Shown here one piece after another: positions 1,304 through 31,103 of a stretch of 34,849 nt of DNA; positions within the stretch are counted from its first letter, which is position 1, and the number at the start of each line of letters is the position of its first letter. The translations under genes were made by a program, and so were the position numbers. Source of the DNA: a virus; the IMG/VR virus record IMGVR_UViG_3300038361_000191, positions 1 through 34,849 of that record, one strand, 5' to 3'. The notes below the pieces were generated by a model. It saw nothing but the letters and a program-made list of their open reading frames with translations. It had not been told where the DNA came from and searched no databases.

Positions 1304-1332
1304 TGTGACACCTCGAAAATATGGGTTGACAG

Positions 1333-1449
1333 TTAGCTCACTATGAGGTCTAAAATCGCTTTGATCAATGGTGAGAAATGATAACCGAAAGCGATACTAC
1401 CGAAAAGACACGTTACACCTATGATGCTTTCAAATGCTAGTTGTGACAT
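1333..1449 (-). CDS. 38-aa single-pass membrane peptide
   Basis: ATG at 1449 is preceded by GAGGTGTTCCC, the array's SD leader. The 38 residues (MSQLAFESIIGVTCLFGSIA...) are mostly hydrophobic over residues 8-24, consistent with one transmembrane helix. The frame stays open far upstream of this ATG, but only this start has a ribosome-binding site. Small phage membrane peptides of this kind are often host-takeover or lysis-timing proteins; nothing here identifies which. Confidence 0.6.
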   Translation of the reverse strand: MSQLAFESIIGVTCLFGSIAFGYHFSPLIKAILDLIVS

Positions 1450-1525
1450 GGGAACACCTCTTATTTGGGGTTGACAGTTAAACTTCAATCTGAGTTGCAG
1501 GGTTGCAACCCAGAATGAAACCGAA

Positions 1526-1768
1526 CTATGCAAGGTGAATATGGTTGTTCTCGTCAAGTACCATACACATGCACCTATCAGCAGCACTCTCGAAAACTTC
1601 AGGTGAAAGCATAACTTTTGAACGGTAGTTGTCGGGTACTTCAGAGAAGTTGTTAAAGTTGTATTCTCTCGAAAACTTCTCACTGAGAAAGCGTGAAGAT
1701 ACTACACCGTGAATTGAGATTGTGTCGCTGATAAATCTGGTAACAATAGAGTCAAGTTCTGTAAACAT
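1526..1768 (-). CDS. 80-aa hypothetical protein
   Basis: ATG at 1768 follows TCGAGGTGTTACC, the clearest form of the array's SD leader, and a CAACCC box lies upstream. The protein (MFTELDSIVTRFISDTISIH...) is soluble, of mixed charge and has no known motif apart from a CMC near its C-terminus. The palindrome at 1500-1511 follows its stop. Confidence 0.6.
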   Translation of the reverse strand: MFTELDSIVTRFISDTISIHGVVSSRFLSEKFSREYNFNNFSEVPDNYRSKVMLSPEVFESAADRCMCMVLDENNHIHLA

Positions 1769-1820
1769 GGTAACACCTCGAAAAAAGGGTTTAGGGGTTG
1801 CAAGCGCAACCCCTGAAATT

Positions 1821-2108
1821 TTATCTGATAGAGTCTTTACAGTATTGGTTCATTTCGCAGAAACTCTTGATAGCAGACTCATGAAAATTTGTGGTATGAC
1901 CAATTTCACCGAAAAAATAATTGACAAGTCTGGTAAGATTGTCAAGGTCAATTTCAGTTCTGATATAAACCATACCAACATCAATCAATTGACCATACTG
2001 AGAAATAATTTCTCTGATCATATAAACCATATCAATACTTTCATAGTTTTCAATAAATTTCTCAGCACTCACGTAAATTTGGTCGGTATCAATTTCTCGA
2101 ATTTTCAT
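1821..2108 (-). CDS. 95-aa hypothetical acidic protein
   Basis: The frame is open from 2144, but the start at 2108 is chosen because AAGGTGAAGTT precedes it and the upstream codons fall in the leader. The 95-residue product (MKIREIDTDQIYVSAEKFIE...) is acidic and probably helical, with no known domain. A GGGGTTGC palindrome (1794-1813) lies seven bases past its stop. Confidence 0.6.
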   Translation of the reverse strand: MKIREIDTDQIYVSAEKFIENYESIDMVYMIREIISQYGQLIDVGMVYIRTEIDLDNLTRLVNYFFGEIGHTTNFHESAIKSFCEMNQYCKDSIR

Positions 2109-2210
2109 AACTTCACCTTGAAATATGGGTTTGGTTGTTCTCACTTCTCAAGAGATTGCAGGGTTGCAACCCCTTGAGAAATGGGGTTGCATTTCTGCAA
2201 CCCCTGATTT

Positions 2211-2615
2211 TTAGCTGATTCTTGCAACCCATTTTTCATCATCTATGCGCATGGTGATAATGCTCTTGAAACTTGCGCTTTTGTAAATTGCGCTTGTGAA
2301 GAAACCTTTACCGTAAGAAACCCCATCTATGATGATGGTTGCACCCTGTTTTGACATACCCGCTAAATGCGAGTAAAAGGTACTTTTGATTATCAAGTTG
2401 AAATGCTTCAAAGTTCTTTTATTCATTACCTCATGTTCTTCTTTGGTAAAATTGTGGTTTAGCAGCATAGAGTTCATCACCTGAGTTCTGGTGCTGTATC
2501 GGTGAATGTTAAAGACCGTCTTCACCCCAAAATGCTCTTGTTTTGATTGAAATGCTCTTGTAATGCTCTTGACTTTCACGGGTTTCTGAATCTCATTTCT
2601 GATAAATCTTCTCAT
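2211..2615 (-). CDS. 134-aa hypothetical basic protein, first gene of the minus-strand array
   Basis: The start at 2615 is chosen over an upstream ATG at 2672 because TGAGGTGAACAAA lies directly before it. The product (MRRFIRNEIQKPVKVKSITR...) is basic in its first 60 residues, with a later more hydrophobic segment (AGMSKQGATIIIDGVSYGKG). I do not recognise the family. As the promoter-proximal gene facing the control region at 2616-3352 it should be the first transcribed of the array. Two palindromes follow its stop. Confidence 0.6.
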   Translation of the reverse strand: MRRFIRNEIQKPVKVKSITRAFQSKQEHFGVKTVFNIHRYSTRTQVMNSMLLNHNFTKEEHEVMNKRTLKHFNLIIKSTFYSHLAGMSKQGATIIIDGVSYGKGFFTSAIYKSASFKSIITMRIDDEKWVARIS

Positions 2616-2794
2616 TTTGTTCACCTCATATTTGGGTTGACGTTTTGTTGAACTGCAAAACTTATAATGCAATCACCATACCAAAAAACTTTTTATTGCA
2701 GTAAGAAAAATTAAAATACTTGTAAGTCACTGTTTTTAAAGTAAAAGAAAATTAAAAAAAATTATTTTGCTGCATTGTATCATGTGTTCAAAAA

Positions 2795-2910
2795 GTGTCT
2801 TATTTGAGACACCCCGAAAAATAAATATGAGACACATGCTTAACTAGCTGTTTTTGTTCACTTTTTTGTGTCTCACTGTTTTTTTACAATTATGGTACAT
2901 ATTGAGACAC
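2795..2910. promoter_or_regulatory. Cluster of GAGACAC / GTGTCTC sites, probable operators
   Basis: GTGTCT at 2795-2800 and GAGACAC at 2806-2812 form an inverted pair. Further copies are at 2829-2835 (GAGACAC), 2868-2874 (GTGTCTC) and 2904-2910 (GAGACAC). Five copies in mixed orientation within 116 bp of non-coding DNA between divergent gene blocks suggest binding sites for a regulator. The regulator is not identified. Confidence 0.5.
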
Positions 2911-3112
2911 TTTTTTATTCAATCAATTCAATATGTTAGCTGTTTTTGCTTCTGAAATTTCGCTCACACTGAACCAAATGGTCAAAGTCACATACTGGTA
3001 TGGGTTGATGGGTTGCTTTACAGTGAAGGGTTGTTTTTGTGCTTCTCAGCGCATATTCTGGGTACAGGTAATGTCAAGAAAGACCACCACGACCACTTGG
3101 TGTTGCCTCCCC

Positions 3113-4535: not shown

Positions 4536-4743
4536 TCATACCATGTACACAGTGCAGAAGTGTTCTCTTACAGAGGATGAGCTTTATGGTAATAGTCATG
4601 CTAGTAAAGATGGATATGATACTGTATGTGGATTAGAGATAAACCATCATTGGTATATTATCAATAATACCTATGATGGGGAATATAATTGTAAAAAGTG
4701 TGCTAAGATTTTAGAGGAGAATAGGATAAATGGAGTATTCTGA
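4519..4743 (+). CDS. 74-aa small Cys protein upstream of nrdJ
   Basis: ATG 4519 has AAGGAT seven bases upstream; a second ATG directly follows. The product contains NCKKCAKIL near its C-terminus (CxxC) plus two earlier cysteines (residues 15 and 37), so it may bind zinc. It overlaps both neighbours and is co-transcribed with nrdJ. Whether it works with the reductase, for example as a redox partner, cannot be judged. Confidence 0.5.
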   Translation: MMVQVNHTMYTVQKCSLTEDELYGNSHASKDGYDTVCGLEINHHWYIINNTYDGEYNCKKCAKILEENRINGVF

Positions 4744-7027
4744 GAACGCTTTGAATGTATTCAAGAAATTGTACTTTAAGAAAGATGAAGGAGGAAATCT
4801 TTTAGAGGATAATCCTGATGAAGTATTTAAAAGGGTATCGGTATTTATATCTGATGATATAAATGATAGCATGAAATGGGAAAAAAGATTTTATGATATG
4901 ATGAAAGATGGATATTTTAGACCGAATACTCCTTGTTTGATGAATGCAGGGGTACAAGAGAAACCACAGACAGCAGCATGTTTTGTTGGGGATATGGAGG
5001 ATGACCTTTGCTCTATCCTGGATTTTGATCGTGAAGCAGCATTGGTTTTTGCTAGTGGAAGTGGGATAGGTATCAATTTTGGTACTTTGCGGGAAAGAGG
5101 AGCAGCTTTGAGTAGTGGAGGAGAAAGTAGTGGTCCTTTTGCCTTTATGAAAAAGTTAGCATCTACGGGTGAAGCGGTTAAAAGTGGGGGAAGAAGTAGA
5201 CGTGCCGCTATTATGAGTATGTTCTTTGATGATCATCCGGACTTATTGGAGTTTATTACTATTAAAAATGGTGTAGATCAAGATTTACGATCTATGAACC
5301 TTTCTGTGGCAGCAAGTGATGCTTTTATGAAAGCAGTTAAGGATGGTAGTAGTTGGGAATTGTGTGGTGTTATAGATGGTAGGATTAAAAGCACACATAA
5401 TGCCAGAGATATTTTTGATCTGATTGCTACGAATGCACATAAAAGTGGAGATCCTGGTATCTGGTTCATTGATAGAGCTAATGCAGATAATGGATTAAAC
5501 AAACAGTATGGTAGTATCACCAGTACAAATCCTTGTGGTGAACAGTCCTTGTTACCTCACGGTGCTTGTGCTTTAGCATCTATCAATCTAGCTAAGTTTG
5601 TAGTGGAAGATGGCAAATTTGATTATGAAAAGTTTAGAGAAATTGTTACATATGGAACTTATTTCCTCGATTTCATGATTGAAAAGAGTGGATACCCTAC
5701 AAAAGATTATGAGGATATGGCTAAGAATACTAGACCACTTGGTTTAGGTATTATGGGTTTAGCGGATATGTTGTGTTTACTGGAAATTCCTTATGATAGT
5801 CAAGAAGCTTATATACTTTGTGGAAATATAGCGGAAGTGTTAACACAAGAGTCAATTGAAGCTTCAATGAAATTGGCAGAAGATTATGGAGCGTTCCCAG
5901 CTTTTAACAATAATATTAATGGTATGACTGAATTATGTGAAAAGTTTGGTTTTCATGACGATGTACTCAATATTAAACCTCTTAGAAATTCTAGTTGGAC
6001 TACAATAGCACCTACAGGTACAATTTCTATTTCTGCTGATTGCTCTCCAGGGATGGAACCTCTTTTCGGTATCACCTACACAAAGAATATAGCGGATTCA
6101 GATGAAAAATGGATATTTGTTAATCCAATTTTTGAAAGTTTACACCATGATAAATCTTGGTATAAGGAAGCAGTCGAGAGAATTGAATTGAATCATGGTT
6201 CATGTCAAGGAATAGAGTGTGTACCTTTAGAAGTCAGGAGGGTATGGAAGACAGCACATGATATTGATTGGAAAGATCGTATTGAAATGCAAGCACACCT
6301 TCAAACGTATATCTCTAATGCTATTTCATCTACTATAAACCTACCTAGATCGGCTACAGTAGACGAAATCAAAGAGATGTATCTCCTTGCGTGGCAAAAA
6401 GGACTAAAAGGAATTACGGTGTATCGTGACGGTTCTCTTGACTGTCAACCAGTGGAATTTGAAAAAGAAAAAGAGAAACCACAAAAGAAAGTAGAGAAAT
6501 TGTGTAAAGGAAGACCTAAAATTCGTGACGGTAAAACTTATGAAGTAGCTACTGGACATGGAAATGTCTTTATTACAGTAAATCATGATTGTAATGGCAA
6601 GATATTTGAAATATTTAATGCTGGTGGAAAAGGTGGAGGTAAAAATGCTGCAAAACTTGAGGCTATAGGTCGTTTAGTATCATTGGCATTACAGTATAAT
6701 GTTCCAATTGACGAAATTGCTTCTCAATTGATCAATATAGGGGATGGAAGTATTGCTTGGGATAAATTAGATCCAAATGATACAAAATCAACACCTATAT
6801 TGAGTATACCTGATGCTATTGGAAAAGTTTTGAAAAAGTTTTATTCTAATAAAAATGGTATGGAAGTGAATATGATCGTTGAGCAGGAAAGTATCATTTT
6901 AGAAGATACACCAGTTGAATGTGCAGAACCAGAGAATAAACAACTACTTTGTCCTGAGTGTGGGGGTAATGCAGAAATGAAAGAAGGATGTCTTTTCTGT
7001 CCTAGTTGTGGCTCAATGTGTTCATAA
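4730..7027 (+). CDS. nrdJ: Class II (adenosylcobalamin-dependent) ribonucleotide reductase
   Basis: Reduces ribonucleotides to deoxyribonucleotides for phage DNA synthesis, using a cobalamin-derived radical and no oxygen. The 765-residue protein has the family hallmarks: FRPNTPCLMNAG (63-74), GSGIGINFGTLRERGA (110-125), NPCGE (267-271) and APTGTISISADCSPGMEP in the second half. By spacing to the Thermotoga enzyme (C322/C333 and C133), C269 is the thiyl-radical cysteine and C84/C280 the redox pair. A TSCPD-type segment (GGKGGGKNAAKLEAIGRL) follows. The C-terminus is a zinc-ribbon-like tail with CPEC and CPSC plus a final Cys, which probably shuttles reducing equivalents. ATG 4730 lies inside the previous gene, behind AGGAGAATAGGA. 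It is uninterrupted: no intron or intein is present. The chain may depend on host cobalamin. Confidence 0.95.
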   Translation: MEYSENALNVFKKLYFKKDEGGNLLEDNPDEVFKRVSVFISDDINDSMKWEKRFYDMMKDGYFRPNTPCLMNAGVQEKPQTAACFVGDMEDDLCSILDFDREAALVFASGSGIGINFGTLRERGAALSSGGESSGPFAFMKKLASTGEAVKSGGRSRRAAIMSMFFDDHPDLLEFITIKNGVDQDLRSMNLSVAASDAFMKAVKDGSSWELCGVIDGRIKSTHNARDIFDLIATNAHKSGDPGIWFIDRANADNGLNKQYGSITSTNPCGEQSLLPHGACALASINLAKFVVEDGKFDYEKFREIVTYGTYFLDFMIEKSGYPTKDYEDMAKNTRPLGLGIMGLADMLCLLEIPYDSQEAYILCGNIAEVLTQESIEASMKLAEDYGAFPAFNNNINGMTELCEKFGFHDDVLNIKPLRNSSWTTIAPTGTISISADCSPGMEPLFGITYTKNIADSDEKWIFVNPIFESLHHDKSWYKEAVERIELNHGSCQGIECVPLEVRRVWKTAHDIDWKDRIEMQAHLQTYISNAISSTINLPRSATVDEIKEMYLLAWQKGLKGITVYRDGSLDCQPVEFEKEKEKPQKKVEKLCKGRPKIRDGKTYEVATGHGNVFITVNHDCNGKIFEIFNAGGKGGGKNAAKLEAIGRLVSLALQYNVPIDEIASQLINIGDGSIAWDKLDPNDTKSTPILSIPDAIGKVLKKFYSNKNGMEVNMIVEQESIILEDTPVECAEPENKQLLCPECGGNAEMKEGCLFCPSCGSMCS

Positions 7028-13118: not shown

Positions 13119-13122
13119 ATGA
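12724..13122 (+). CDS. 132-aa protein with two helix-turn-helix segments, inserted in the GT gene
   Basis: SD AGGAGG lies seven bases before ATG 12724. The protein has one HTH near residues 45-65 (PVSEELGVSFNTVSKYLDGL) and another near 102-125 (LTRKQVMERCGISHTTFNKL). It is basic and suits DNA binding. No HNH, GIY-YIG or LAGLIDADG motif is seen, so it may be a homing endonuclease remnant or a DNA-binding protein that works with another nuclease. It overlaps both halves of the split gene. Confidence 0.65.
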   Translation: MARGNFVNWDSLKETYNRMHNTQYKTSKEWVIELYNKHKKYVSPVSEELGVSFNTVSKYLDGLGVLERKPKGGNNYINRPMGKKEQLFLGITEKTMLELTRKQVMERCGISHTTFNKLAKKYGRTYLKGRSA

Positions 13123-15302
13123 AACCAATAGAGGGAAAGAGAATTGCATTCTTAGGGGCATTGTCTCACAAAAAAGGTATTCAGCTTATGGTTGAGGGGT
13201 TCAATGCCATTCATGAAGCTGATGAGGAGTATACTATTCACATTGGGGGTATAATTCAAGATGTACGCTATGGGGCTTATTTAGATCATGCTATTCTTGA
13301 TTTAAAATTGCAAGATCATATTTATTATGATGGAAAGGTTGAAGATGTAGTCTCTTGGTTGCAGGATAAAGACTATATTTACTGTTCTTCACCCTTAGAA
13401 GGTTGTCCAGTCGGGGTATTAGAAGCACTTTCTGTAGGATTAAAGCCTCTAATTCACTCATTTATAGGTGCTTCTGGTCTTTACCCACAAAAATATATCT
13501 GGAGAACCATAAAAGAATTGGTTGCAATGGCTTTAGAGGGTAGGGGTGATCCAAAAGAATATAGGGATTTTGTTAAGAATAATTATTCGTTGGATAGACA
13601 ATTGAAGTCAATAAGCAGGGTGGTAGGTTCTGTAGCTAAGGATGTAAAGAAAACTGCTGTGCGATCTAAGAATAGTACTGTTTCTTGTGTAATTGCTGTT
13701 AAGAACGGGGAGAAAACCATTGAAAGAGCATTGGAATCTCTAATTTGTCAGACTAAGAAATTAGATCAGATCATTGTTGTAAATGATGCTTCCACTGATA
13801 ATACAGTGGAAATTGTGTCTAAATTTGCAACATTTCATAAAGATTCAACTATTAACGCTCAGATTATCACTTTGCCAGAAAGTAAATGGGTATTTTCAGC
13901 TAGAAATGAGGGATTTAAGCGTGTAGATACGGATTATTTCTTTTTTCTTGATGCAGATGATTATGTACCTGAAAATTATGTGTATGAAATGAGCAAAATG
14001 TTAGACAATAATCCTACAGTAGCAGTTACTTATTGTGATATGGTTCATTTTAATGAACTAGGGGAGGAGAAAGTTCCTGTACCAGAATTTGATCCATCTA
14101 TTCTTATGGAAAGAAATTTTATTGCTTACTCTGCAATGCAAAGGACGAAGAACTTTGAAGGATATTCTGAATATTTGAATGATACCAGAAATCATTTGAC
14201 GGAATGGGATCTTTGGTTAAATTACGTCAAGAGGGGTTTCCAGATAAGAAAGTGTACCCATACTAGCTTTCATTATTACCTTGCACCCACGATGGGCTCA
14301 GACACTCAAATGAGTAAAAATTATGAACAACCTAGACTTTCAATGCACATTCAGATGGCGATGGGGTTGGTTGCTAATCTTTCTGATATTCAGATTAAAG
14401 GGGATGAGAAAAGAATTCTTCTTGTATGTCAGGGAAAAGATTATTTGGATCGTTCAAAAATGGGTTTTGAACTTATGACTTGGTGCAAACCTCTAGAGGA
14501 TTTTGGGGATGTATTTGTATTCCAGTATGATGTAGCAATAAAACATTTTGGTAAAGAAGGAATGGTTAACAAGCTGGAAGAGACTTTAAATGTTGTAGAC
14601 CCAACTGTAATTTTCCACCCAACATACGTGGATGATATTCCAGCTAAAACATGGGCTGAGATAACTAAAGCATTTAAAACAGTTTGCTGGAATAGTGATG
14701 ATGATAGACGGTTCGACAGTTTTTCAAAAGAGTATGGGAAAAATTTTACTAATTCGGTGACTACTTACCCTGAAATATTTAAGAAAATGGATCATCCTGG
14801 TAGGATTTTAAGTGCTTGGGCAGTGAACACTTCTTATTTTTATCCTAGAGAAAAAACAATAGATGTTAGTTTTTGTGGTCAGAAGTATGGTGGCCGTGAA
14901 GAAATGTTAAGCGGTTTGGATGTGGAATGTTATGGGGGTGGTTGGGAAAATGGTTTTGTTGATTTTACAGAAATGGCAAAGATATTAGGGGAGAGCAAAA
15001 TTTCTATTAATTTCAGTTTGGGTGCTGATGGTAATTCTCAAATGAAACTCCGACCCTTTGAGATATGTGGTTCTAATACTTTGTGTTTAACTGAGAATGC
15101 ACCTGGATTAGATAATTTATATGCGATAGAGGAAGAGGTTATCCTTTTTGAAACCAAAAAAGAACTAAAGGAATTGATCGAGTATTATCTAGAACATGAA
15201 GATGAAAGAAAAGCTATAGCCAAAGCTGCATATGAGCGCACTATATCTAAGCATACGTGGAAAAATAGGTTTGAAGAGATTTTCAACGTGCTTTACACTT
15301 AA
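13119..15302 (+). CDS. Three-part glycosyltransferase: GT4 C-half, GT2 domain, CgeB-like GT domain
   Basis: The 727-residue protein starts with the C-terminal domain of the split GT4 enzyme: FLGALSHKKGIQLMVEGF (11-28) and SPLEGCPVGVLEALSVG (91-107), with the EX7E pair E94/E102 that binds the nucleotide-sugar donor. Residues about 187-410 form a GT2 (GT-A) domain: SCVIAVKNGEKTIERAL, VVNDASTDNT and the metal-binding DADD at 278-281. Residues about 431-727 resemble CgeB-type glycosyltransferases (KRILLVCQGK... and a C-terminal SQMKLRPFEICGSNTLCLTE). ATG 13119 has AAAGGAAG upstream. The chain may perform two or three successive sugar transfers. Confidence 0.85.
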   Translation: MKPIEGKRIAFLGALSHKKGIQLMVEGFNAIHEADEEYTIHIGGIIQDVRYGAYLDHAILDLKLQDHIYYDGKVEDVVSWLQDKDYIYCSSPLEGCPVGVLEALSVGLKPLIHSFIGASGLYPQKYIWRTIKELVAMALEGRGDPKEYRDFVKNNYSLDRQLKSISRVVGSVAKDVKKTAVRSKNSTVSCVIAVKNGEKTIERALESLICQTKKLDQIIVVNDASTDNTVEIVSKFATFHKDSTINAQIITLPESKWVFSARNEGFKRVDTDYFFFLDADDYVPENYVYEMSKMLDNNPTVAVTYCDMVHFNELGEEKVPVPEFDPSILMERNFIAYSAMQRTKNFEGYSEYLNDTRNHLTEWDLWLNYVKRGFQIRKCTHTSFHYYLAPTMGSDTQMSKNYEQPRLSMHIQMAMGLVANLSDIQIKGDEKRILLVCQGKDYLDRSKMGFELMTWCKPLEDFGDVFVFQYDVAIKHFGKEGMVNKLEETLNVVDPTVIFHPTYVDDIPAKTWAEITKAFKTVCWNSDDDRRFDSFSKEYGKNFTNSVTTYPEIFKKMDHPGRILSAWAVNTSYFYPREKTIDVSFCGQKYGGREEMLSGLDVECYGGGWENGFVDFTEMAKILGESKISINFSLGADGNSQMKLRPFEICGSNTLCLTENAPGLDNLYAIEEEVILFETKKELKELIEYYLEHEDERKAIAKAAYERTISKHTWKNRFEEIFNVLYT

Positions 15303-21926: not shown

Positions 21927-22780
21927 GAAATCAATTCGTAAGGACAATGACAGATATAATGAATGAGGATCAAAACCCTTATCTTCTCTTAGGTGATATT
22001 GGAGTGTGGGGTTTCAGACATCTATTAGAGAAATACCCTCTGAGAGCAAAGAATATAGGTATCTGTGAGCAGGCAATGATCAGTCTAGCATCAGGGTTAT
22101 CTATGGTTGGTTTTACCCCTGTGGTGCATTCTATAGCACCGTTTCTAGTGGAGAGAGCATACGAGCAAATTAAGATTGATTTTGGATATCAAGAGTTAGG
22201 TGGTAATTTTGTTTCTGTTGGAGCTAGTTATAATTACAATAAACTTGGAAGTACACATCACTGTCCAGCAGACGTTTCTATCCTCAGTCAAATACCAAAT
22301 ATGCAAATAGTTGTGCCAGGTTCGGCGAAAGAGTTTGACATTTTGTTTAAGGAAAGTTATAATAATGGTCTACCTACCTACTTTCGCCTGTGTGAGCATA
22401 CTAATGGGGATAACTTGAATGTCAAATTTGGTGAGGTGCTCCCACTTCATGGAACTGGCACAAGGTTCACAATGCTTATCACAGGTCCTGCCTTTGACTA
22501 CGTTAAGATAACTGGTTATATGGGTTCTGGAATAAAAGTGTTATATTGCACTACACCAGTACCATTAGATTTGTATACTATAGGTAGGAATATAGAAAGT
22601 AATAGACTCATGATTGTTGAGCCATACTATTCAGCTATGTTACCAGAGATAGTAAATGCTTTTCCTGGTTTAGAGGTAATTTCTGTAACACCCGATAAAG
22701 CATTTGTAGATGTTGGTTTTGATCAGGAAAAAGATATGGTTAATCGCATTATTTGGAATGTGAGGAGATTGAAATGGTAG
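21923..22780 (+). CDS. Transketolase-like C-terminal subunit
   Basis: This 285-aa partner supplies the pyrimidine-binding and C-terminal domains. NIGICEQAMISLASGLSMVG (44-63) contains E49, the conserved catalytic glutamate that activates thiamine diphosphate. GSAKEFDILFKESYN and a C-terminal TPVPLDLYTI segment match the family. It is separated from its N-terminal half by five small genes (about 1.1 kb), although the two must assemble. The C-terminal domain is short for the family. Confidence 0.85.
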   Translation: MRNQFVRTMTDIMNEDQNPYLLLGDIGVWGFRHLLEKYPLRAKNIGICEQAMISLASGLSMVGFTPVVHSIAPFLVERAYEQIKIDFGYQELGGNFVSVGASYNYNKLGSTHHCPADVSILSQIPNMQIVVPGSAKEFDILFKESYNNGLPTYFRLCEHTNGDNLNVKFGEVLPLHGTGTRFTMLITGPAFDYVKITGYMGSGIKVLYCTTPVPLDLYTIGRNIESNRLMIVEPYYSAMLPEIVNAFPGLEVISVTPDKAFVDVGFDQEKDMVNRIIWNVRRLKW

Positions 22781-23754
22781 ATATAAAAGATTTTTTCCCC
22801 AGTGTTGCTAGTAGGGTTCGTAACATTGAAAAACTAAAAGGTAGGAAGGTACTAGTGACAGGGGCAAGCGGTCTAATTGGTAATCATATTCTTTCAACAT
22901 TAGATGACGTTGAAGCAGATACACATATTTTACACCATGAGACTGTTCCTTACTGTATACGTAAGAGAATGACTGGTCATTCTTGGTATTCCTTAACTTT
23001 ACCTACTAGAAGTTTTGATTATATTTTTCATTTAGCGGGATATGGACAACCAGACAAATTTAGTATAAATCCTTATACGACAATCGATTTGAATACGGGG
23101 GTTTTACTACATTTAATTACTAAAAATTTAGAGTTTGGTGGTTCTATCTTATTTGCCAGTACTTCAGAGATTTATAGCGGTTTGACTGTAGAAGCTACTG
23201 AAGATATGGTTGGAACTACTACGCCAGCACATCCCAGAGCTTGCTACATTGAAAGTAAACGTTGTGGTGAGGCTCTTATTCATGCTTTGAATGAAAAGGG
23301 TTACAATGGTAAAATTGCTAGGATAGCTTTAGCATATGGTCCTGGTTGCAGATATGATGACACCCGTGTTATGTCGGATTTCATTAGAATGGGTTTGGAA
23401 AATAAGCACATAGCACCAAGGGGTGGATTGAGAAATGTACGTACATATAATTATGTTACTGATACCGTCCAAATGCTCTTTAACATCCTATTGAATGGGA
23501 AGCAGACCGTTTACAATGTAGGTGGTGAAAGTTCTCTTACAATAGGGAGATTAGCTTTGCTAATAGGAAAGGAAGTAGGTGCAAAAGTGGAGTTAGTTGA
23601 TTTAATACACACCGATGCATCCCCTACATTTGTTGGTATTAGCACTGATAGATACAATGAGGAATTCCCAGATATGAAAATTACAAATATAAATGATGGT
23701 TTGGATAGGACAATAGAGTGGTTTAGGTATTTGGAGGAGTCAAAAAATGGCTGA
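22774..23754 (+). CDS. Extended SDR: NAD-dependent nucleotide-sugar epimerase/dehydratase
   Basis: ATG 22774 is behind GAGGAG. The 326-aa protein has VLVTGASGLIGNH (26-38), the NAD-binding GxxGxxG, FHLAGYGQP, FASTSEIY near residue 130 and YIESK (158-162), the catalytic Tyr/Lys. It reads closest to UDP-glucuronate decarboxylase and dTDP-glucose dehydratase relatives. Product specificity cannot be assigned. It follows the transketolase half, suggesting that both act on one sugar. Confidence 0.85.
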   Translation: MVDIKDFFPSVASRVRNIEKLKGRKVLVTGASGLIGNHILSTLDDVEADTHILHHETVPYCIRKRMTGHSWYSLTLPTRSFDYIFHLAGYGQPDKFSINPYTTIDLNTGVLLHLITKNLEFGGSILFASTSEIYSGLTVEATEDMVGTTTPAHPRACYIESKRCGEALIHALNEKGYNGKIARIALAYGPGCRYDDTRVMSDFIRMGLENKHIAPRGGLRNVRTYNYVTDTVQMLFNILLNGKQTVYNVGGESSLTIGRLALLIGKEVGAKVELVDLIHTDASPTFVGISTDRYNEEFPDMKITNINDGLDRTIEWFRYLEESKNG

Positions 23755-24140: not shown

Positions 24141-25088
24141 GTGAAAAAATTATTAGTTACTGGAGCTGGTGGTCTATTAGGAAAAGCAATTTGCACTGTT
24201 GCGCAGAATGATTTTGATGTAATTTCCTTAAAAAGGGAAGATTGTGATTTGATTAATTTCCAAGATACAAAAGCTATTTTTAATTATGTAAAACCGGATT
24301 ATGTAATTCATACGGCAGCCGTAGTTGGAGGTATAGGTTCTAATATGAACCATCCAGGTAAATTTTTCTGTAGTAACATTGCAATTAATACTAATATTTT
24401 GGAATGTGCCAGATTAGTGAATGTGAAAAAACTTATATCATTTTTATCAACGTGTGTCTTCCCCGATAATGCACCTTACCCATTGAGCGTAGAGAACATC
24501 CATGATGGTCCACCGCACCCTTCTAATGCGGCTTATGCTCATGCTAAACGAATGCTTGATGTACAGAGTAGAGCTTATAGAACAGAATACGGGTGTGATT
24601 TTATTACACTAGTACCTACTAATTTATACGGTTTTCATGATAATTGGGATATTGAGAATGGTCATGTTATTCCATCCTTAATTCATAAAGCATTTATTGC
24701 AAAGAAAGAGGAGAAACCTCTTATTGTATGGGGCAGTGGAAAACCTTTACGAGAATTTATTTTTGTTGACGATATGGCAAATATTTCTCTTAGGTGTTTT
24801 AGTGAATACATTTCTGCTGATCCTTTGATAATATCTACAAGTGAAGAAGTATCTGTAGGAAAAGTAGCAGAAAAGATAGCTAAAAGAGTTGGTGTGAAAT
24901 GCATTTTTGATACCGATAAACCTGATGGTCAGATGAGGAAACCTTCTGATAATTCTGTTTTCAAAGAAATATTTCCTGACTTTGTTTTTACTTCTCTAAA
25001 GCAGGGTTTAGGACATACAATAAATGAGTTCGAATATCATTGGATTAACAAATTACCAATGAGAGGAGTGTCCTATGATAACAAATGA
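24141..25088 (+). CDS. fcl: GDP-L-fucose synthase-like epimerase/reductase (SDR)
   Basis: GDP-fucose synthase (WcaG/Fcl) converts GDP-4-keto-6-deoxymannose to GDP-L-fucose. The start is GTG 24141 behind AAGGAAGGAG. The 315-aa protein has LLVTGAGGLLGKA (4-16), FLSTCVFP (101-108) and YAHAK (132-136) with the catalytic Tyr/Lys. It also has the family signature VPTNLYGFHDNWDIENGHVI and REFIFVDDMA. No GDP-mannose dehydratase (Gmd) is in the window, so the precursor must come from the host or from genes outside it. Confidence 0.88.
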   Translation: MKKLLVTGAGGLLGKAICTVAQNDFDVISLKREDCDLINFQDTKAIFNYVKPDYVIHTAAVVGGIGSNMNHPGKFFCSNIAINTNILECARLVNVKKLISFLSTCVFPDNAPYPLSVENIHDGPPHPSNAAYAHAKRMLDVQSRAYRTEYGCDFITLVPTNLYGFHDNWDIENGHVIPSLIHKAFIAKKEEKPLIVWGSGKPLREFIFVDDMANISLRCFSEYISADPLIISTSEEVSVGKVAEKIAKRVGVKCIFDTDKPDGQMRKPSDNSVFKEIFPDFVFTSLKQGLGHTINEFEYHWINKLPMRGVSYDNK

Positions 25089-25993: not shown

Positions 25994-27679
25994 CTATCTG
26001 TCTGTATCTTCACCTCTACCATCCTTACCGTCAAGTTGTCGGGAAGAACCTTTTACATTATCAGTAATACCTTTAGCAGAAGGATCAGCATCAGATTTGC
26101 CAGGATCTCTATCTCTGTCTCTAGCATTATTTTGTCTAATATCTTTTGTGGATCTATTTTCAGTTTGATCGTTTGCTTTTAAAATATCTTCTTCTGTTAA
26201 TTTATCAATGGCATTGCGAATATCTACCATTAAGGCGTCAGGTAAATCCGGTAATGCTCTTTTAGCTACTGTTTTCATTAATTCTTTTTTGAAGGTAAGT
26301 TCAGGGATTATACGATCAGCCATAATAGCATTTTCAAGACTTTGACTGAGATCATCAATGCTGAAGTCAGTGGACCTTGTAATTTCCACCTTATTAAAAT
26401 CTTTCTCTTTATTTTGCCATTTCAACCAATATTTAATAATACCTAGTTCTGTCTCTGTGAGATTAGAGCTTTTCTTACCTAGTACAAGACCTAGTTGTTG
26501 AAATTCATAGCGCATTGCTACCCCTGATCTAGCAGCACTACCACTAGTTCTTTGGGCATTAAGACCAGACAGATGAGCCAATTGAAATGTTTCTTCTACC
26601 TTTTTGTCTACCCAATTTAGAATAGCATCTATAGGTTCATTTACTTCTGCATTTAGCCAATCTGGTTTTCCTGCTTCACCTAGAGATGGATCAAATTCAA
26701 GAATAGCCGTAACTCCAGCTTCATTATTAATCTCTTCACCTTCTCTAGCCATAGGACGTCTTGCTTGAGGGAAACCAGCAAATTTGATAACTTCTTCTCC
26801 ATAAGAAACATTTCGAATAATACTAGCCGTAATTCTTGATATTTCTTTAATATCAGATTCACCAATGTAAGGATCTTCAATATTCTTGATATTTTGAAAC
26901 CACAGGAAAGGTATTTCATTTAATGGATTAGGTCCTTCTGAAACCATAATTGGATCTTCTGTGGAGGTTAATGCACTTACAATTTTACCTGGATGTTGTG
27001 CATATTTATTATCTCCAGGTTTAGGTTCATAATCTGAAGTATCTGTATGTTTATGAATCCTCATAGTGGTTCCACCAGAAGTTTCAGGAATAGTCCATAT
27101 TTCCCATTTATCTGGCCACCAAAGTAAATACCTATTATCGTAATCAAACAATTTGAGATAGGTCAGTTGAGGTCTATTAGTGCGTTCATCCCTTTCATGT
27201 TCCCAATCTAATATATTAGGTAATGTAAAAGTAGAGCAATAAGGATAAATGCCATCAGCTACATCTTCTTTGAGGATTTGATTTGTACTTGTAGGTTTGT
27301 CAACTAAGATTCCTACTGCACCGTATATACCTGCTAATTTTTGAGATTCATTCAAATACACATCAAAATTGGTTCCATATAGATCAGCATCTTTGGTAAA
27401 TAACTTCCACAATTTATCATCTACTAAAGGACCTAATTCTCTCAAAGCAGGCTTTTCTGTAAGGTAGAAATTAAATAGATCAATAACGATACTGGAGTAA
27501 TTGAAACAGGTTCCTTCATCTTGTCTAGATTTCCAATTTTTTTGGGATTCTCTCATATGTTTTTGTAATGCAAAATTTATAAAACGAGTACCTCCAGAAT
27601 AAGCTAGGCCCCAAAATGTCCAATCGCTTATCATATCTGCATAAGTGTCGTGGGTTTCTAATAGTTGTTCTACATCCAT
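25994..27679 (-). CDS. Phage portal protein, DUF4055-like
   Basis: The portal forms the dodecameric DNA-entry ring at one capsid vertex. The 561-aa protein has the expected size, the N-terminal IVIDLFNFYLTEKP, the conserved NEIPFLWFQNI near its middle, the long wing/stem helices (ETFQLAHLSGLN and SSNLTETELGIIKYWLKWQN) and an acidic, disordered Asp/Arg-rich tail (residues about 510-561). This reads as a DUF4055-type portal. SD AAGGAG precedes ATG 27679. It follows the terminase large subunit with a 12-bp gap, the normal packaging order, but is transcribed opposite to the capsid genes. Confidence 0.8.
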   Translation of the reverse strand: MDVEQLLETHDTYADMISDWTFWGLAYSGGTRFINFALQKHMRESQKNWKSRQDEGTCFNYSSIVIDLFNFYLTEKPALRELGPLVDDKLWKLFTKDADLYGTNFDVYLNESQKLAGIYGAVGILVDKPTSTNQILKEDVADGIYPYCSTFTLPNILDWEHERDERTNRPQLTYLKLFDYDNRYLLWWPDKWEIWTIPETSGGTTMRIHKHTDTSDYEPKPGDNKYAQHPGKIVSALTSTEDPIMVSEGPNPLNEIPFLWFQNIKNIEDPYIGESDIKEISRITASIIRNVSYGEEVIKFAGFPQARRPMAREGEEINNEAGVTAILEFDPSLGEAGKPDWLNAEVNEPIDAILNWVDKKVEETFQLAHLSGLNAQRTSGSAARSGVAMRYEFQQLGLVLGKKSSNLTETELGIIKYWLKWQNKEKDFNKVEITRSTDFSIDDLSQSLENAIMADRIIPELTFKKELMKTVAKRALPDLPDALMVDIRNAIDKLTEEDILKANDQTENRSTKDIRQNNARDRDRDPGKSDADPSAKGITDNVKGSSRQLDGKDGRGEDTDR

Positions 27680-27691
27680 TTTATTTCTCCT

Positions 27692-30238
27692 TTATTTCCA
27701 ATAAAGTTTTGATGGTGGCCTTCTTACGTATCTCGGTTTATTCACCCATTGTAAAAATTGACTTGTTGAGTCTACCATATCGTCATGTTCAGTAGAAGGG
27801 AAATTTGTTATTTGATATTCATAATCAGATAACCAATGGGCTTCTTCTGGAAGAAATACCTTTCCAGCTTCAAATAAAGTTGTTACTGCGTCAAAGCGTA
27901 ATATTTTGTTCACATTGTTGGTACTGATGGGGATAATGGGAATTCTAGTTTCCATTTTTATATCTTGAATTAAAGATTGCCCACTAGCTCTATCTTCAAC
28001 CAATACCCCTGTGGCTTTGTGAACTTCGTATAGTTGTAAAAATCTTTTTTTAAGTTCTGGAAATTCCATTCTTTTGTTTATTACATCTAATAGGTAATAT
28101 CCATTTTCACCTATACCCCACACTGTGGCAGCAGATGGGTCACTTATTTCTGAATCTTTAAATGCCGTATCCCAACTTATAATGATTCTATTTAGTTTTG
28201 GTAAAATTGAATATCTTTTTAACCAGGCATGTTTTACCATACCCCCTTCTCTACTTACTGGATGCTGTTGGTACTGAGCATTCCATTCGTAAGAACCAAT
28301 AATTTTTTCTATAGCATTTAAAGATGACTGAGGATAAGCTTCTGGCCATAGAGCATCCCCAACTTCTCTACCGAGAATATCATTCTCTTCTGCAATAGCT
28401 TTGAGATCAAGAATTGTCCAATCTTCTTGTGGATGTTCCTTTAGTACATAACCGCTAAGATCATTTTCATGCCATCTAGTATTAATCATAATAATTCTAT
28501 TATCAGGCATCAATCTAGTATAAGCAACTGCTCTGTACCATTCGTGGAGGTCTTTTCGAATTGTTTGGGATTCTATTTCTTTTCTGGATTTGATAGGATC
28601 ATCTATAATAAAGCAGTTGTGGGTTAAAATGAGATAGTTATCGTTAGTTATCGTTCTTTTATTGTGTACTGCATGTGCAAAGAAGTTACTTGTTCCCTCA
28701 ACTTGGATGTCATAGACTGGGATCGGATCTGTGCTAATTCTTTCAATTTGGGAAATGGTGTCCTCTTTGATTTGTGATGAATTATATGACAACTGAGACA
28801 TAGTGTTATTAGATTTTCTGGTGCATTGTTGGTCTTGTCCCCATCTATGTGATGTAGTAAGAGAGTTTCCCTCTTTGTTTTGTTCCCTGTATTGCCATCT
28901 ACCGTCGATACTTTCCCCATTTGAATATTGCATACAGCGCATTGATTGTTGTCCCTCTCTAGTATTAAAGGGCGCATTTTGCGTGATATGATGTTGTATT
29001 CTTTCCCATGCCGATAATTGGAATTCTGTGTTCCAAGCATTTTCTGAGAATGTGTTTGATTGGCACATTCTCGGGAGCAATGCTGCGTTAAGTAGCTTAA
29101 TGGGGAAAATGTTTTCCCACATTGAGGACATATTATTTTTGGCATTTTCCTTCGCTCTCTGGACTCTTTTCTGCATTTGTTGGAACAGAATTTTCGTATA
29201 GGCGTTTCTGTTGTTTTTCCGCAGATTACACATTTTCTTTTGTTTTTTACAGCGTGATGTTTTTGGGAACATTCTATTGAACAATACATATCTTTGTGCT
29301 TTCTTTTTATTGCTGCACGTACTTCGTAATTCTTTTTTACTACTTCTTTTCCGCACCATGCACATGTTATTTTTGTATCGGCTTTTCGAAGCATATGATA
29401 GCAGGATCTGCAATGAAGAGAGCCTATAGTTTTTCTTTTTCCACACTCCGGACATACTTGGGATTTTCTTGTCTGTAATAATTGTGATGGTGTCTCCCTT
29501 TTGTATATCTTTCGTTTTAATGTAACCTTGTCCCTGTATGAAGAATTTGTGCTCTCCAGTTGCTCTAATGTAATTCCCTGAATTTGTGGTGATTTTGTAG
29601 AGTTCATTTGTAATTTCCTTTCTAGCAGCTATTATTTTTTTGTATACTAAAGTGTTACTAGTATGGTCTAAAGATAATATTTTTATTTCTTTGCTAGATA
29701 ATAACTCTACGAGGGTAGCAATGTCAACAGTTTTTATTGAAGAATCAATCTTCACATTTAGCATTGTTTCTGCTGGAAGACAATTTGCTCCACGTCCAGT
29801 GGCACCACCACCAACACTGATGTTAAAGTACTCTCCACCCTGAATAGTAGAGAAATGAGACACAGATTTTGAATCTGAAGAAATAGCACAACCAGGAAAT
29901 ATTTCTCTATGTAAATCTGAGTCAACTAAATTTCTGACTTTTCGTCCAACATCGTCACCACGTTTCTGATTGTAAGTTGACCATATAATTTGCCAATCTG
30001 GATTTCTACCTATGAACCAGGCAGGAAACATTTCAGATGCTAATAAAGTTTTACCATGCCTAGGGGGAGAAAAAATTAGTAACCTTCTAATATCTCCTCT
30101 CTCTACAGCTTCCAGATACATGGCAATCATTTCATGCATTAACCCAATTTTATATTTTGGGTACATTAAACGTGTGAAGCTTAAAAGTTTAGAGTGCGCA
30201 AATTGTTCGTTGGAAGGACCTTTTTTAATTGCCATCAT
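27692..30238 (-). CDS. Terminase large subunit, interrupted by an intein
   Basis: The DNA-packaging ATPase/nuclease motor. The 848-residue precursor contains a 389-residue intein (153-541), so the spliced protein is 459 aa, normal for the family. The ATPase domain has Walker A SPPRHGKT (57-64) and, after splicing at ANC, Walker B FIIDDP (543-548). NTRWHENDLSGYVL follows as the coupling motif. The nuclease domain (RNase H fold) has IIISWDTAFKD and ends HDDMVDSTSQFLQW with acidic catalytic residues. The start is one of two adjacent ATGs at 30238/30235, overlapping the small-subunit stop, with AAAGGGAG at the same site. Splicing is essential because the intein sits between the nucleotide-binding motifs. 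A second gene is nested in the +1 frame (28648-29607). Confidence 0.93.
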   Translation of the reverse strand: MMAIKKGPSNEQFAHSKLLSFTRLMYPKYKIGLMHEMIAMYLEAVERGDIRRLLIFSPPRHGKTLLASEMFPAWFIGRNPDWQIIWSTYNQKRGDDVGRKVRNLVDSDLHREIFPGCAISSDSKSVSHFSTIQGGEYFNISVGGGATGRGANCLPAETMLNVKIDSSIKTVDIATLVELLSSKEIKILSLDHTSNTLVYKKIIAARKEITNELYKITTNSGNYIRATGEHKFFIQGQGYIKTKDIQKGDTITIITDKKIPSMSGVWKKKNYRLSSLQILLSYASKSRYKNNMCMVRKRSSKKELRSTCSNKKKAQRYVLFNRMFPKTSRCKKQKKMCNLRKNNRNAYTKILFQQMQKRVQRAKENAKNNMSSMWENIFPIKLLNAALLPRMCQSNTFSENAWNTEFQLSAWERIQHHITQNAPFNTREGQQSMRCMQYSNGESIDGRWQYREQNKEGNSLTTSHRWGQDQQCTRKSNNTMSQLSYNSSQIKEDTISQIERISTDPIPVYDIQVEGTSNFFAHAVHNKRTITNDNYLILTHNCFIIDDPIKSRKEIESQTIRKDLHEWYRAVAYTRLMPDNRIIMINTRWHENDLSGYVLKEHPQEDWTILDLKAIAEENDILGREVGDALWPEAYPQSSLNAIEKIIGSYEWNAQYQQHPVSREGGMVKHAWLKRYSILPKLNRIIISWDTAFKDSEISDPSAATVWGIGENGYYLLDVINKRMEFPELKKRFLQLYEVHKATGVLVEDRASGQSLIQDIKMETRIPIIPISTNNVNKILRFDAVTTLFEAGKVFLPEEAHWLSDYEYQITNFPSTEHDDMVDSTSQFLQWVNKPRYVRRPPSKLYWK
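28636..28655. repeat. Perfect 10-bp tandem duplication at the end of the intein
   Basis: AGTTATCGTT occurs twice in direct succession (28636-28645 and 28646-28655). Ten bases shift the frame by one. With both copies, block F is in frame with the THN/C splice end; with one copy it would not be. The nested HNH stop codon falls inside it. Confidence 0.85.
28648..29607 (-). CDS. HNH homing endonuclease nested out of frame in the intein
   Basis: A 319-aa protein lies in the +1 frame relative to the terminase/intein. ATG 29607 has AAAGGA eight bases upstream, all inside intein block B DNA. Residues 1-48 are the alternate reading of real intein sequence and carry no motif. From residue 50 there are four Cys4 zinc ribbons (52/55/66/69, 82/85/109/113, 126/129/141/145, 160/163/177/181). 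An HNH domain follows, with CAVC (213-216), LLLHHIDGDKTNNAPENL (239-256) and CLSCHIIHH (260-268). It ends at 28648, inside the DNA for the intein C-terminus. The zinc fingers and HNH look intact. It presumably cuts an intein-less terminase gene and so spreads the intein. Confidence 0.85.
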   Translation of the reverse strand: MNSTKSPQIQGITLEQLESTNSSYRDKVTLKRKIYKRETPSQLLQTRKSQVCPECGKRKTIGSLHCRSCYHMLRKADTKITCAWCGKEVVKKNYEVRAAIKRKHKDMYCSIECSQKHHAVKNKRKCVICGKTTETPIRKFCSNKCRKESRERRKMPKIICPQCGKTFSPLSYLTQHCSRECANQTHSQKMLGTQNSNYRHGKEYNIISRKMRPLILERDNNQCAVCNIQMGKVSTVDGNTGNKTKRETLLLHHIDGDKTNNAPENLITLCLSCHIIHHKSKRTPFPKLKELAQIRSQSMTSKLREQVTSLHMQYTIKER

Positions 30239-31043
30239 CTCCCTTTCGTCCTACCAATTCACCTTCAAGAATGTCATCTCCACCACCTAATTTTTCAGCT
30301 AATAATTTGCCACCTGGAGTATTCATTAATTTTGAAGGTGTGATTTGTGCAGCTTCTATGATGGCGTCTGTCTCCTCTTTTGAATGGACAACATCTATTC
30401 TTCCTCTGATCATATTTTTATTTTCATTGTAAGTATCTGGAAGTAAACATCTGGCAGCAAAAATGATTGCTGCTGTGTCCCCCGATGCCACTTTTGCTAA
30501 TAGACTGGATTCTACTAAGTCCTTTTTCTCCTCATCAACAGATAACATTTCATCTTTGAACGACTCATCTATCTCCATCCATTTTACAACTTTACCCCTA
30601 GATATACCGACTTCATTACATGCTTCTGTCAAGTTGAAACTGGAATATCTGTAAGCTTCTTTTAGAGCATCTTTCAGAACCCTTTCATCTTCGTTGTTAG
30701 TTATGATAACCTTTTTGTCTATTTCCTTTTCCTCAGTTACCATTGTTGGTTTGTAGAATGCGGCAGGATCTTTCTGTTTTCTTATATTGTAATATTGCTC
30801 TTTGAACATGGGATCATCTTCAGCCCATGTGTAAATAGTATTTTGAGATTTGACTCCGGCTTTCTTCAAGGCTTTAGAAATGGTCATTCCCTTACTTTTG
30901 TAGTGATATAGGAAATTTCTTTTCTTAGTCCTTATCTCTATTATATCTTCTTCAGATAATTCTTTTTTAGGTTTAATGCGTTTTTTAAGCCGTTTTCTAT
31001 TGGAAAATGCTTTATCATTTGTATCAATTCTTTTAGTTCCCAT
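30225..31043 (-). CDS. Terminase small subunit-like protein
   Basis: Recognises the phage DNA and regulates the large subunit. The 272-aa protein is basic at the N-terminus, has two HTH-like stretches (GMTISKALKKAGVKSQNTIY near residues 52-71 and NLTEACNEVGISRGKVVKWM near 137-156), then LLAKVASGDTAAIIFAARCL, a motif typical of HTH-type phage terminase small subunits. An acidic C-terminal tail (GGGDDILEGELVGRKGDDGN) may contact the large subunit. GGGGGA lies seven bases before ATG 31043. It sits directly upstream of, and overlapping, the large subunit. Confidence 0.75.
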   Translation of the reverse strand: MGTKRIDTNDKAFSNRKRLKKRIKPKKELSEEDIIEIRTKKRNFLYHYKSKGMTISKALKKAGVKSQNTIYTWAEDDPMFKEQYYNIRKQKDPAAFYKPTMVTEEKEIDKKVIITNNEDERVLKDALKEAYRYSSFNLTEACNEVGISRGKVVKWMEIDESFKDEMLSVDEEKKDLVESSLLAKVASGDTAAIIFAARCLLPDTYNENKNMIRGRIDVVHSKEETDAIIEAAQITPSKLMNTPGGKLLAEKLGGGDDILEGELVGRKGDDGN

Positions 31044-31073
31044 AAAAAAATCCCCCGTTAATACATTTTTTTC

Positions 31074-31103
31074 TTGACAACCGCTTTTAAGTTCCCTTAG
31101 TAT
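31074..31103 (+). promoter_or_regulatory. Candidate rightward promoter of the capsid operon
   Basis: TTGACA (31074-31079), an 18-nt spacer and TAGTAT (31098-31103, 4/6). It lies in the divergent gap between the packaging and capsid genes and has the same spacing as the other promoters found. Confidence 0.45.

Follow-up and report, generated by a model that had tools for sequence, protein, structure and literature searches.

Organization of the terL locus

The window, i.e., the whole stretch of DNA analyzed here, is IMG/VR virus record IMGVR_UViG_3300038361_000191, 34,849 nt in length. Its minus strand, on which all the features described below are located, carries a packaging module in the order TerS (30225-31043), TerL, and portal (25994-27679). 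The large terminase gene terL (27692..30238) is a single ORF encoding a precursor of 848 aa, which matches the PHROG_38 terminases (1e-97) and the Terminase_6N, Terminase_6C, and Intein_splicing models. The N-extein (29783..30238) contains the Walker A motif PPRHGKT and ends with GRGAN, and the C-extein (27692..28615) starts with CFIIDDP, which includes Cys+1 and Walker B, and continues into the nuclease domain (Terminase_6C). Between the two exteins is an in-frame insertion of 389 aa (29782..28616; GRGAN/CLPAETM...LTHN/CFIIDDP, slashes marking the junctions), the C-junction of which is four residues ahead of the Walker B aspartates of the TerL ATPase site.

The blocks of a class 1 intein are all present in this insertion, namely CLPAETM with Cys1 (block A), TGEH of the form TxxH at 29560-29549 (block B), VYDIQVEGTSNFFA, and LTHN/C with the penultimate His, the Asn, and Cys+1 (block G). 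The N-terminal splicing half (intein residues 1-104; 29471..29782) is recognized by TIGR01445 and the C-terminal half (residues 338-389; 28616..28771), which includes block F as YDIQVEGTSNFFAH, by TIGR01443; these matches and that of Pfam Intein_splicing (1.4e-17) are all in the intein frame. Residues C1, T75, H78, and N389 are invariant in the family alignment. Judged by these blocks, the insertion is a class-1-type intein at the Walker B site of the ATPase and is predicted to splice. The halves are connected by an open linker (residues 105-337; 28772..29470), and the host gene is unbroken, not fractured as in split inteins. About 13 additional residues (NFFAHAVHNKRTITNDNYLILTHN) are located ahead of the C-junction of this intein, which is unusual; they could have an effect on splicing.

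A second gene (28648..29607) is nested wholly within the intein, in the +1 frame relative to the TerL/intein frame. It encodes a protein of 319 aa whose best family match is to the PHROG_1271 zinc-ribbon HNH endonucleases (1e-31). Its ATG at 29607 is preceded, at a distance of 8 nt, by a Shine-Dalgarno-like AAAGGA (29616..29621), and the closest stop in the HNH frame is only 7 codons upstream of this ATG. Four Cys4 zinc ribbons are followed by an HNH nuclease core. The first ribbon (29401..29454) is formed by C52, C55, C66, and C69; the second (29269..29364) by C82, C85, and C109, all invariant in the family alignment, and C113, conserved in at least 90% of it; the third (29173..29232) by C126, C129, C141, and C145, and it is absent from Synechococcus phage S-EIVl and locus L011; and the fourth (29065..29130) by the invariant C160, C163, C177, and C181. 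The core (28774..28941; C223, C226, H252, H253, N265, C270, C273, H274, H278) is matched by HNH models and carries a Cys4 set of its own, and H252, H253, N265, H274, and H278 are invariant in a 37-row alignment. The nested gene probably encodes the HNH endonuclease that spreads the intein, with cutting as its predicted activity. Standard annotation at such loci names TerL and misses the HNH gene.

An initial annotation made from the DNA alone had described an out-of-frame gene inside a terminase intein, with four Cys4 ribbons, an HNH domain, and AAAGGA eight bases ahead of the ATG, and all of these were recovered. It had also held that the intein frame is free of motifs along the nested gene. 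This is correct for the region of the HNH core (about 29454-28774), with which the motif-free residues 105-337 coincide, and incorrect for the ends of the HNH ORF, where block B is overlapped by the 5' end and block F by the 3' end. Block F, read in the shifted frame, makes up the last ~30 codons of the ORF, which explains their conservation.

Distribution of the nested layout

A tblastn search with the HNH protein found matches in Gordonia phage Clown (65% GC) and in S-EIVl (44-45% GC), in both cases inside genes annotated only as terminase, with the HNH in the +1 frame of TerL and the TerL frame open. Three further IMG/VR contigs encode an HNH protein 100% identical to that of the window. 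Scanning IMG/VR with the HNH alignment yielded 62 loci, of which 56 were classified: 51 have the HNH in the +1 frame of an open TerL-intein ORF (a locus had to show an open host ORF to be called nested, which biases this count), none has it in frame, and in five distant loci the HNH is free-standing.

A second scan was blind to the HNH and applied no open-host filter, querying IMG/VR for DNA that encodes His-Asn-Cys-x-hydrophobic-hydrophobic-Asp-Asp-Pro, the sequence of the junction. It returned at least 118 TerL inteins. An HNH-profile match was present in at least 95 of these, always in the +1 frame, and the family HMM run across the junction loci found no in-frame HNH homologue among the matches listed. 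Within the 95 HNH-containing loci, again among the matches listed, 80 have an HNH ORF of at least 200 aa under the standard code, or about 81 when locus L169 is read under its own code. The others are partial, some of them cut by contig ends and some true remnants that carry a deletion within the HNH while their host frame stays open; profile matches close to block F that are shorter than ~80 aa were excluded from the intact set, as they may represent the block F shadow or a contig-end cut. Among the matches listed, 23 loci have no HNH, and nine of the HNH-less loci were scanned with Pfam; three (L086, L106, L083) look like mini-inteins and one (L156) has an in-frame LAGLIDADG endonuclease. 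Over the 330 codons that precede the junction, stops in the host frame were found only in L153 and L169 among the matches listed. Those of L153 may be located upstream of its short TerL ORF.

Two scans of GTDB genome contigs found no relative, and a tblastn search of phages with only the 114-aa N-intein half as query gave nothing at 0.01. A sequencing error as the source of the frame difference was ruled out, since the +1 layout is seen in ~95 lineages as well as in the three contigs with the identical HNH protein. As far as sequence comparison can tell, the double-coded layout is present in scores of unrelated phages and is a widespread, largely unrecognized form of intein.

Selection on the two frames

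In this relative frame, a stop in the intein frame needs a T at the third position of an HNH codon (T3), followed by a codon starting with AA, AG, or GA. When the HNH codons of this copy were shuffled synonymously, a mean of 16 intein-frame stops was expected, whereas none is present (0/20,000 shuffles). T3 is found at 0 of 77 such stop-prone junctions vs. 64 of the 155 remaining ones. Openness is not general, as the initial annotation had noted, and the third frame of the HNH region contains 27 stops (mean of 25.5 in the shuffles). The same pattern was obtained for 94 non-redundant nested HNH genes with a GC content of 0.35-0.70 in the overlap: 0 intein-frame stops vs. about 903 expected by synonymous shuffling, 1067 third-frame stops vs. 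956 expected, and T3 at 0/4446 risky junctions vs. 3996/13425 safe ones. Six free-standing HNH/zinc-ribbon relatives show no comparable stop avoidance, with five near expectation and L015 at 5 vs. 12.6. Chance overlap of two open frames was ruled out by the shuffling, both for this copy and for the family.

The two frames differ in what is conserved. In 23 pairs (one duplicating another), with block F left out, the median dN/dS is about 0.13 for the HNH frame and about 1.75 for the intein frame, and amino-acid identity is greater in the HNH frame in 23/23 pairs. These comparisons indicate that the HNH is conserved as a protein, and that the intein frame across it is merely kept open.

A recoded phage provides an internal control. 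Locus L169 has a GC content of 26.7% and reads TGA as sense; its conserved GRGAN is correct only with TGA as Gly. Its host frame looks broken unless TGA is read as glycine. Under code 25, the intein frame of L169 is open, and the HNH frame is open through the entire HNH core. T3 occurs at 0 of 87 positions before AA or AG codons and at 15 of 20 before GA codons. The intein frame has been purged of TAA and TAG but not of TGA, as expected if ribosomes read it with the genetic code of this phage.

The uniformity of the +1 frame may follow from the genetic code. Changing T3 to C3 is synonymous throughout the standard code, and thus a host-frame stop can always be removed without any change to the HNH protein. 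If the nested gene lay in the other relative frame, any Met with Lys, Asn, Thr, Ile, or Met after it would produce an unavoidable TGA, and such pairs occur in 69 of 95 HNH cores among the matches listed. Purging by T3-to-C3 changes, if true, would account for the overlap being +1 in every case. The TerL set may instead share its frame through descent from a common ancestor. The frame is likewise +1 in two HNH genes embedded out of frame in methylase genes (SG4, CUB-EPI_14).

Predicted structures

AlphaFold (AF2) models were built from 37-sequence alignments of the family's own proteins. The HNH model has a mean pLDDT of 84, with at least 90 at 212 of its 319 residues. In the intein-frame model, residues 1-104 and most of residues 338-389 have a pLDDT of about 95, and the linker is mostly at 40-55. 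The models thus predict a confident Hint fold interrupted by a disordered stretch exactly over the confident HNH core, the linker being the frame shadow of that core. Among solved inteins, the Hint part has a profile match to the Spl DnaX mini-intein (7.6e-25), and Foldseek gives fold matches too. A Foldseek search of the HNH model against the PDB gave no significant match, probably due to the flexible geometry of multiple ribbons, and at the sequence level the HNH family profile matches solved HNH proteins weakly.

The initial annotation had proposed that selection keeps both frames open, to be examined by stop counts in randomized sequences and by dN/dS per frame. Both results, together with the L169 control and the structure models, agree with this proposal. 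Neither of two observations it had named as damaging was made: the frame difference is no sequencing error, and no relative among the matches listed has the same endonuclease in the intein frame.

Mobility and decay

Compared with Gordonia phages Danyall and Bakery, Gordonia phage Clown has exactly one additional block, of 1155 nt, which is the intein; the alignment is otherwise gapless over 1605 nt, at ~80% identity. The empty site reads PMD/FGIIDDP and the filled site PMD/C...N/CGIIDDP, so that the +1 residue is changed from F to C in Clown. Among 161 matching records, coverage of at least 80% of the query, with the insert included, is found only in the two accession copies of Clown. For the exact empty site of the window, the search found only divergent intein-less TerLs (e.g., L192, L211). 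The insertion points form four classes, all inside six codons of Walker B, and the class switches seven times along the HNH tree; in many pairs, the HNH proteins are more alike than the C-exteins (e.g., 52% vs. 28%). The preferred use of a single insertion region fits homing, and the sporadic, exact insertion is an indirect sign that the HNH may cut the intein-less allele. In some copies, the HNH has decayed and the intein frame is still open. The empty site and these decayed copies agree with the earlier suggestion that splicing is uncoupled from invasion.

Expression of the HNH gene and proposed mechanism

Taken together, the element is very probably a mobile intein whose sequence is translated into two overlapping products. 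How the HNH frame is entered is less certain, because about one third of the copies have no recognizable Shine-Dalgarno site. Among the matches listed, a start codon with a Shine-Dalgarno-like core of at least 4 nt at proper spacing before the zinc ribbons is present in the HNH frame of 61 of 95 copies, vs. 32 of 190 trials when the two remaining frames of that region were examined; this enrichment favors internal initiation. The HNH could instead be made by programmed +1 frameshifting in the N-terminal half of the intein, giving an extein-intein-HNH fusion with no start of its own. The 34 of 95 copies (among the matches listed) that lack a Shine-Dalgarno-like site of at least 4 nt would fit such a fusion, as would the HNH frame being often open far upstream of the first zinc ribbon (380 codons from stop to stop in Clown). 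Besides the enrichment, it is disfavored by the short distance of the AAAGGA-8nt-ATG of this copy from the preceding HNH-frame stop, and by the AGGAG-6nt-GTG that S-EIVl has right ahead of its zinc ribbons, and we regard it as unlikely. HNH stop codons are frequently located just within the C-extein.

It is very unlikely that the phage keeps the HNH as a terminase accessory for packaging, of the HK97 gp74 type, rather than as a homing enzyme. The HNH does reside in terL, and HNH proteins are described as acting with terminases (Kala et al. 2014, as cited in PMC10448857 and PMC12613952). An accessory of this kind is difficult to reconcile with a sporadic distribution (one Gordonia phage among ~160 related records), with decay or disappearance of the HNH while TerL persists, and with HNH proteins that are in many pairs more alike than the exteins around them. 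Phage group I introns often contain HNH ORFs, and yet an RNA-level group I or group II intron carrying the HNH ORF, with the open TerL frame incidental, is hardly credible given the lack of any Rfam match to a catalytic RNA core in 27500-31100 even at E<=1, the intact splicing blocks and Hint fold, the complete absence of the ~903 expected host-frame stops, and the HN/C junction with its F-to-C change at +1 in Clown. That either frame is a fortuitous shadow of the other, with a single functional frame, is true of the final ~30 HNH codons and has almost no chance of holding for the rest, where the Cys, His, and Asn of the HNH core are invariant in the 37-row alignment, the low dN/dS was obtained with block F excluded, and stop avoidance in the intein frame tracks the genetic code in L169.

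The mobile intein with two overlapping products would operate as follows. TerL would be translated through the intein frame, and the split Hint domain would fold and excise itself, restoring the Walker B ATPase motif and allowing the phage to package DNA. The same mRNA would be read in the +1 frame from the internal start (ATG 29607, AAAGGA) to give a separate zinc-ribbon HNH homing endonuclease, which would cut, at the Walker B codons, the terL of co-infecting phages that lack the intein, and repair would copy the intein together with the HNH and the Cys+1 codon. Selection holds the HNH frame as a protein and keeps the intein frame in between merely stop-free. After fixation, the HNH can decay by deletion to a remnant or a mini-intein, leaving TerL unharmed. 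It is also quite likely that, in viral metagenomes, such elements are a major class of inteins, and the dominant one at the TerL Walker B site, with an overlapping +1 homing endonuclease translated from its own start, a linker kept stop-free by T3-to-C3 purging, and invasion and splicing that evolve and decay separately.

Comparison with known systems

Inteins are taught as single proteins with the endonuclease fused in frame. The element described here resembles canonical bifunctional inteins (LAGLIDADG or HNH) in having splicing blocks with the endonuclease between blocks B and F. It differs in that the canonical endonuclease is in the intein frame and is released as one protein with it, whereas no endonuclease lies in frame between these blocks here, the HNH being +1 and presumably translated separately. 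Fractured genes whose split inteins are accompanied by a free-standing endonuclease were reportedly described by Dassa and colleagues in 2009 (as cited in PMC10448857). These are similar in that the endonuclease is translated apart from the splicing halves, as would be the case here, and different in that the splicing halves here stay within one continuous ORF. Other annotated HNH relatives in phage records are mostly separate genes, whereas the present ones are nested. The dCTP deaminase intein of cyanophage CL131 has an in-frame HNH (PMC6293099).

If this reading is correct, endonucleases at one well-sampled phage site are most often arranged as dual-coding genes, and intein surveys restricted to in-frame searches under-count endonucleases. 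The family would also offer a large natural collection of gene overlaps where selection acts on the protein in one frame and only against stops in the other, with a recoded phage as internal control, and would yield a simple rule to predict the relative frame available to a nested gene. A homing enzyme that can be lost without harm to splicing bears on the origin of mini-inteins.

The initial annotation knew of no described case of this kind; as a claim that none exists in the literature, this went too far. In the ShiLan element, an HNH lies out of frame in a methylase insertion that is explicitly said to lack splicing domains (PMC11855218). Both systems have an HNH/zinc-finger homing endonuclease out of frame, a host frame left open, and a sporadic distribution. 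The ShiLan insertion has no splicing blocks and is thought to remain in the methylase, whereas here a complete Hint domain brackets the HNH and the host gene, terL, is essential. The SG4 methylase element, which is related to ShiLan, is also +1 and has a distant relative of the HNH. Our literature search, which did not reach the 2025 preprint mentioned next, found no account of an out-of-frame endonuclease inside a splicing-competent intein. For overlapping frames, PMC11855218 cites a 2025 preprint on actinophage inteins of "non-canonical architecture" (bioRxiv 2025.01.02.630785), which, to go by that citation and its title, may already cover a Clown-like intein. By the sequence evidence, a homing intein with an overlapping +1 endonuclease gene is real and widespread; the preprint is concerned with actinophages, as far as its title indicates, whereas the layout described here spans viral contigs of 35-70% GC, a cyanophage, and a recoded phage.

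TerL inteins and their nested HNH genes

Immediately upstream of the C-terminal splice junction of the window's large terminase (TerL) intein (window 28616-28690), the intein sequence reads NFFAHAVHNKRTITNDNYLILTHN, followed by the C-extein Cys. This stretch is about 13 residues longer than that of its relatives, in which NFFANEVLVHN precedes the Cys, and it contains an additional VHN. The nested HNH of this intein is also present in the TerL junction region of L169 (IMG/VR, 8716 nt), a phage of 26.7% GC in which TGA is a sense codon, with Gly (code 25) as the best reading; TGA occurs in its intein frame, and TAA and TAG do not. Three contigs (L078, L168 and L182) represent one intein in which the middle part of the nested HNH has been lost; the TerL frame remains open, and the intein is a decay intermediate. 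Another locus (L077:1380-4331) apparently carries two inteins in one TerL, one with an in-frame LAGLIDADG domain.

Other genes of the window

The window also encodes a ribonucleotide reductase large subunit (4730-7027, PHROG_84). Two further ORFs, at 13119-15302 and 33656-end, resemble glycosyltransferases, and nucleotide-sugar epimerases are encoded at 22753-23754 and 24141-25088; these four genes suggest sugar modification of a surface or of the virion.

Out-of-frame HNH genes in methylase genes

In Staphylococcus phage CUB-EPI_14 (L189), an HNH frame (2453-2944) lies in +1 of a DNA-cytosine methyltransferase frame (1306-3111), with no obvious intein motif in the methyltransferase around it; this is a ShiLan-like element, i.e., an out-of-frame HNH in a methylase insertion lacking the splicing domain (PMC11855218), outside actinophages. 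The ShiLan-type methylase insertion of Mycobacterium phage SG4 gp70 (L188:1942-3720) likewise carries its HNH (2318-2950) in +1 relative to the host gene, and this HNH and that of the TerL intein are distant relatives.
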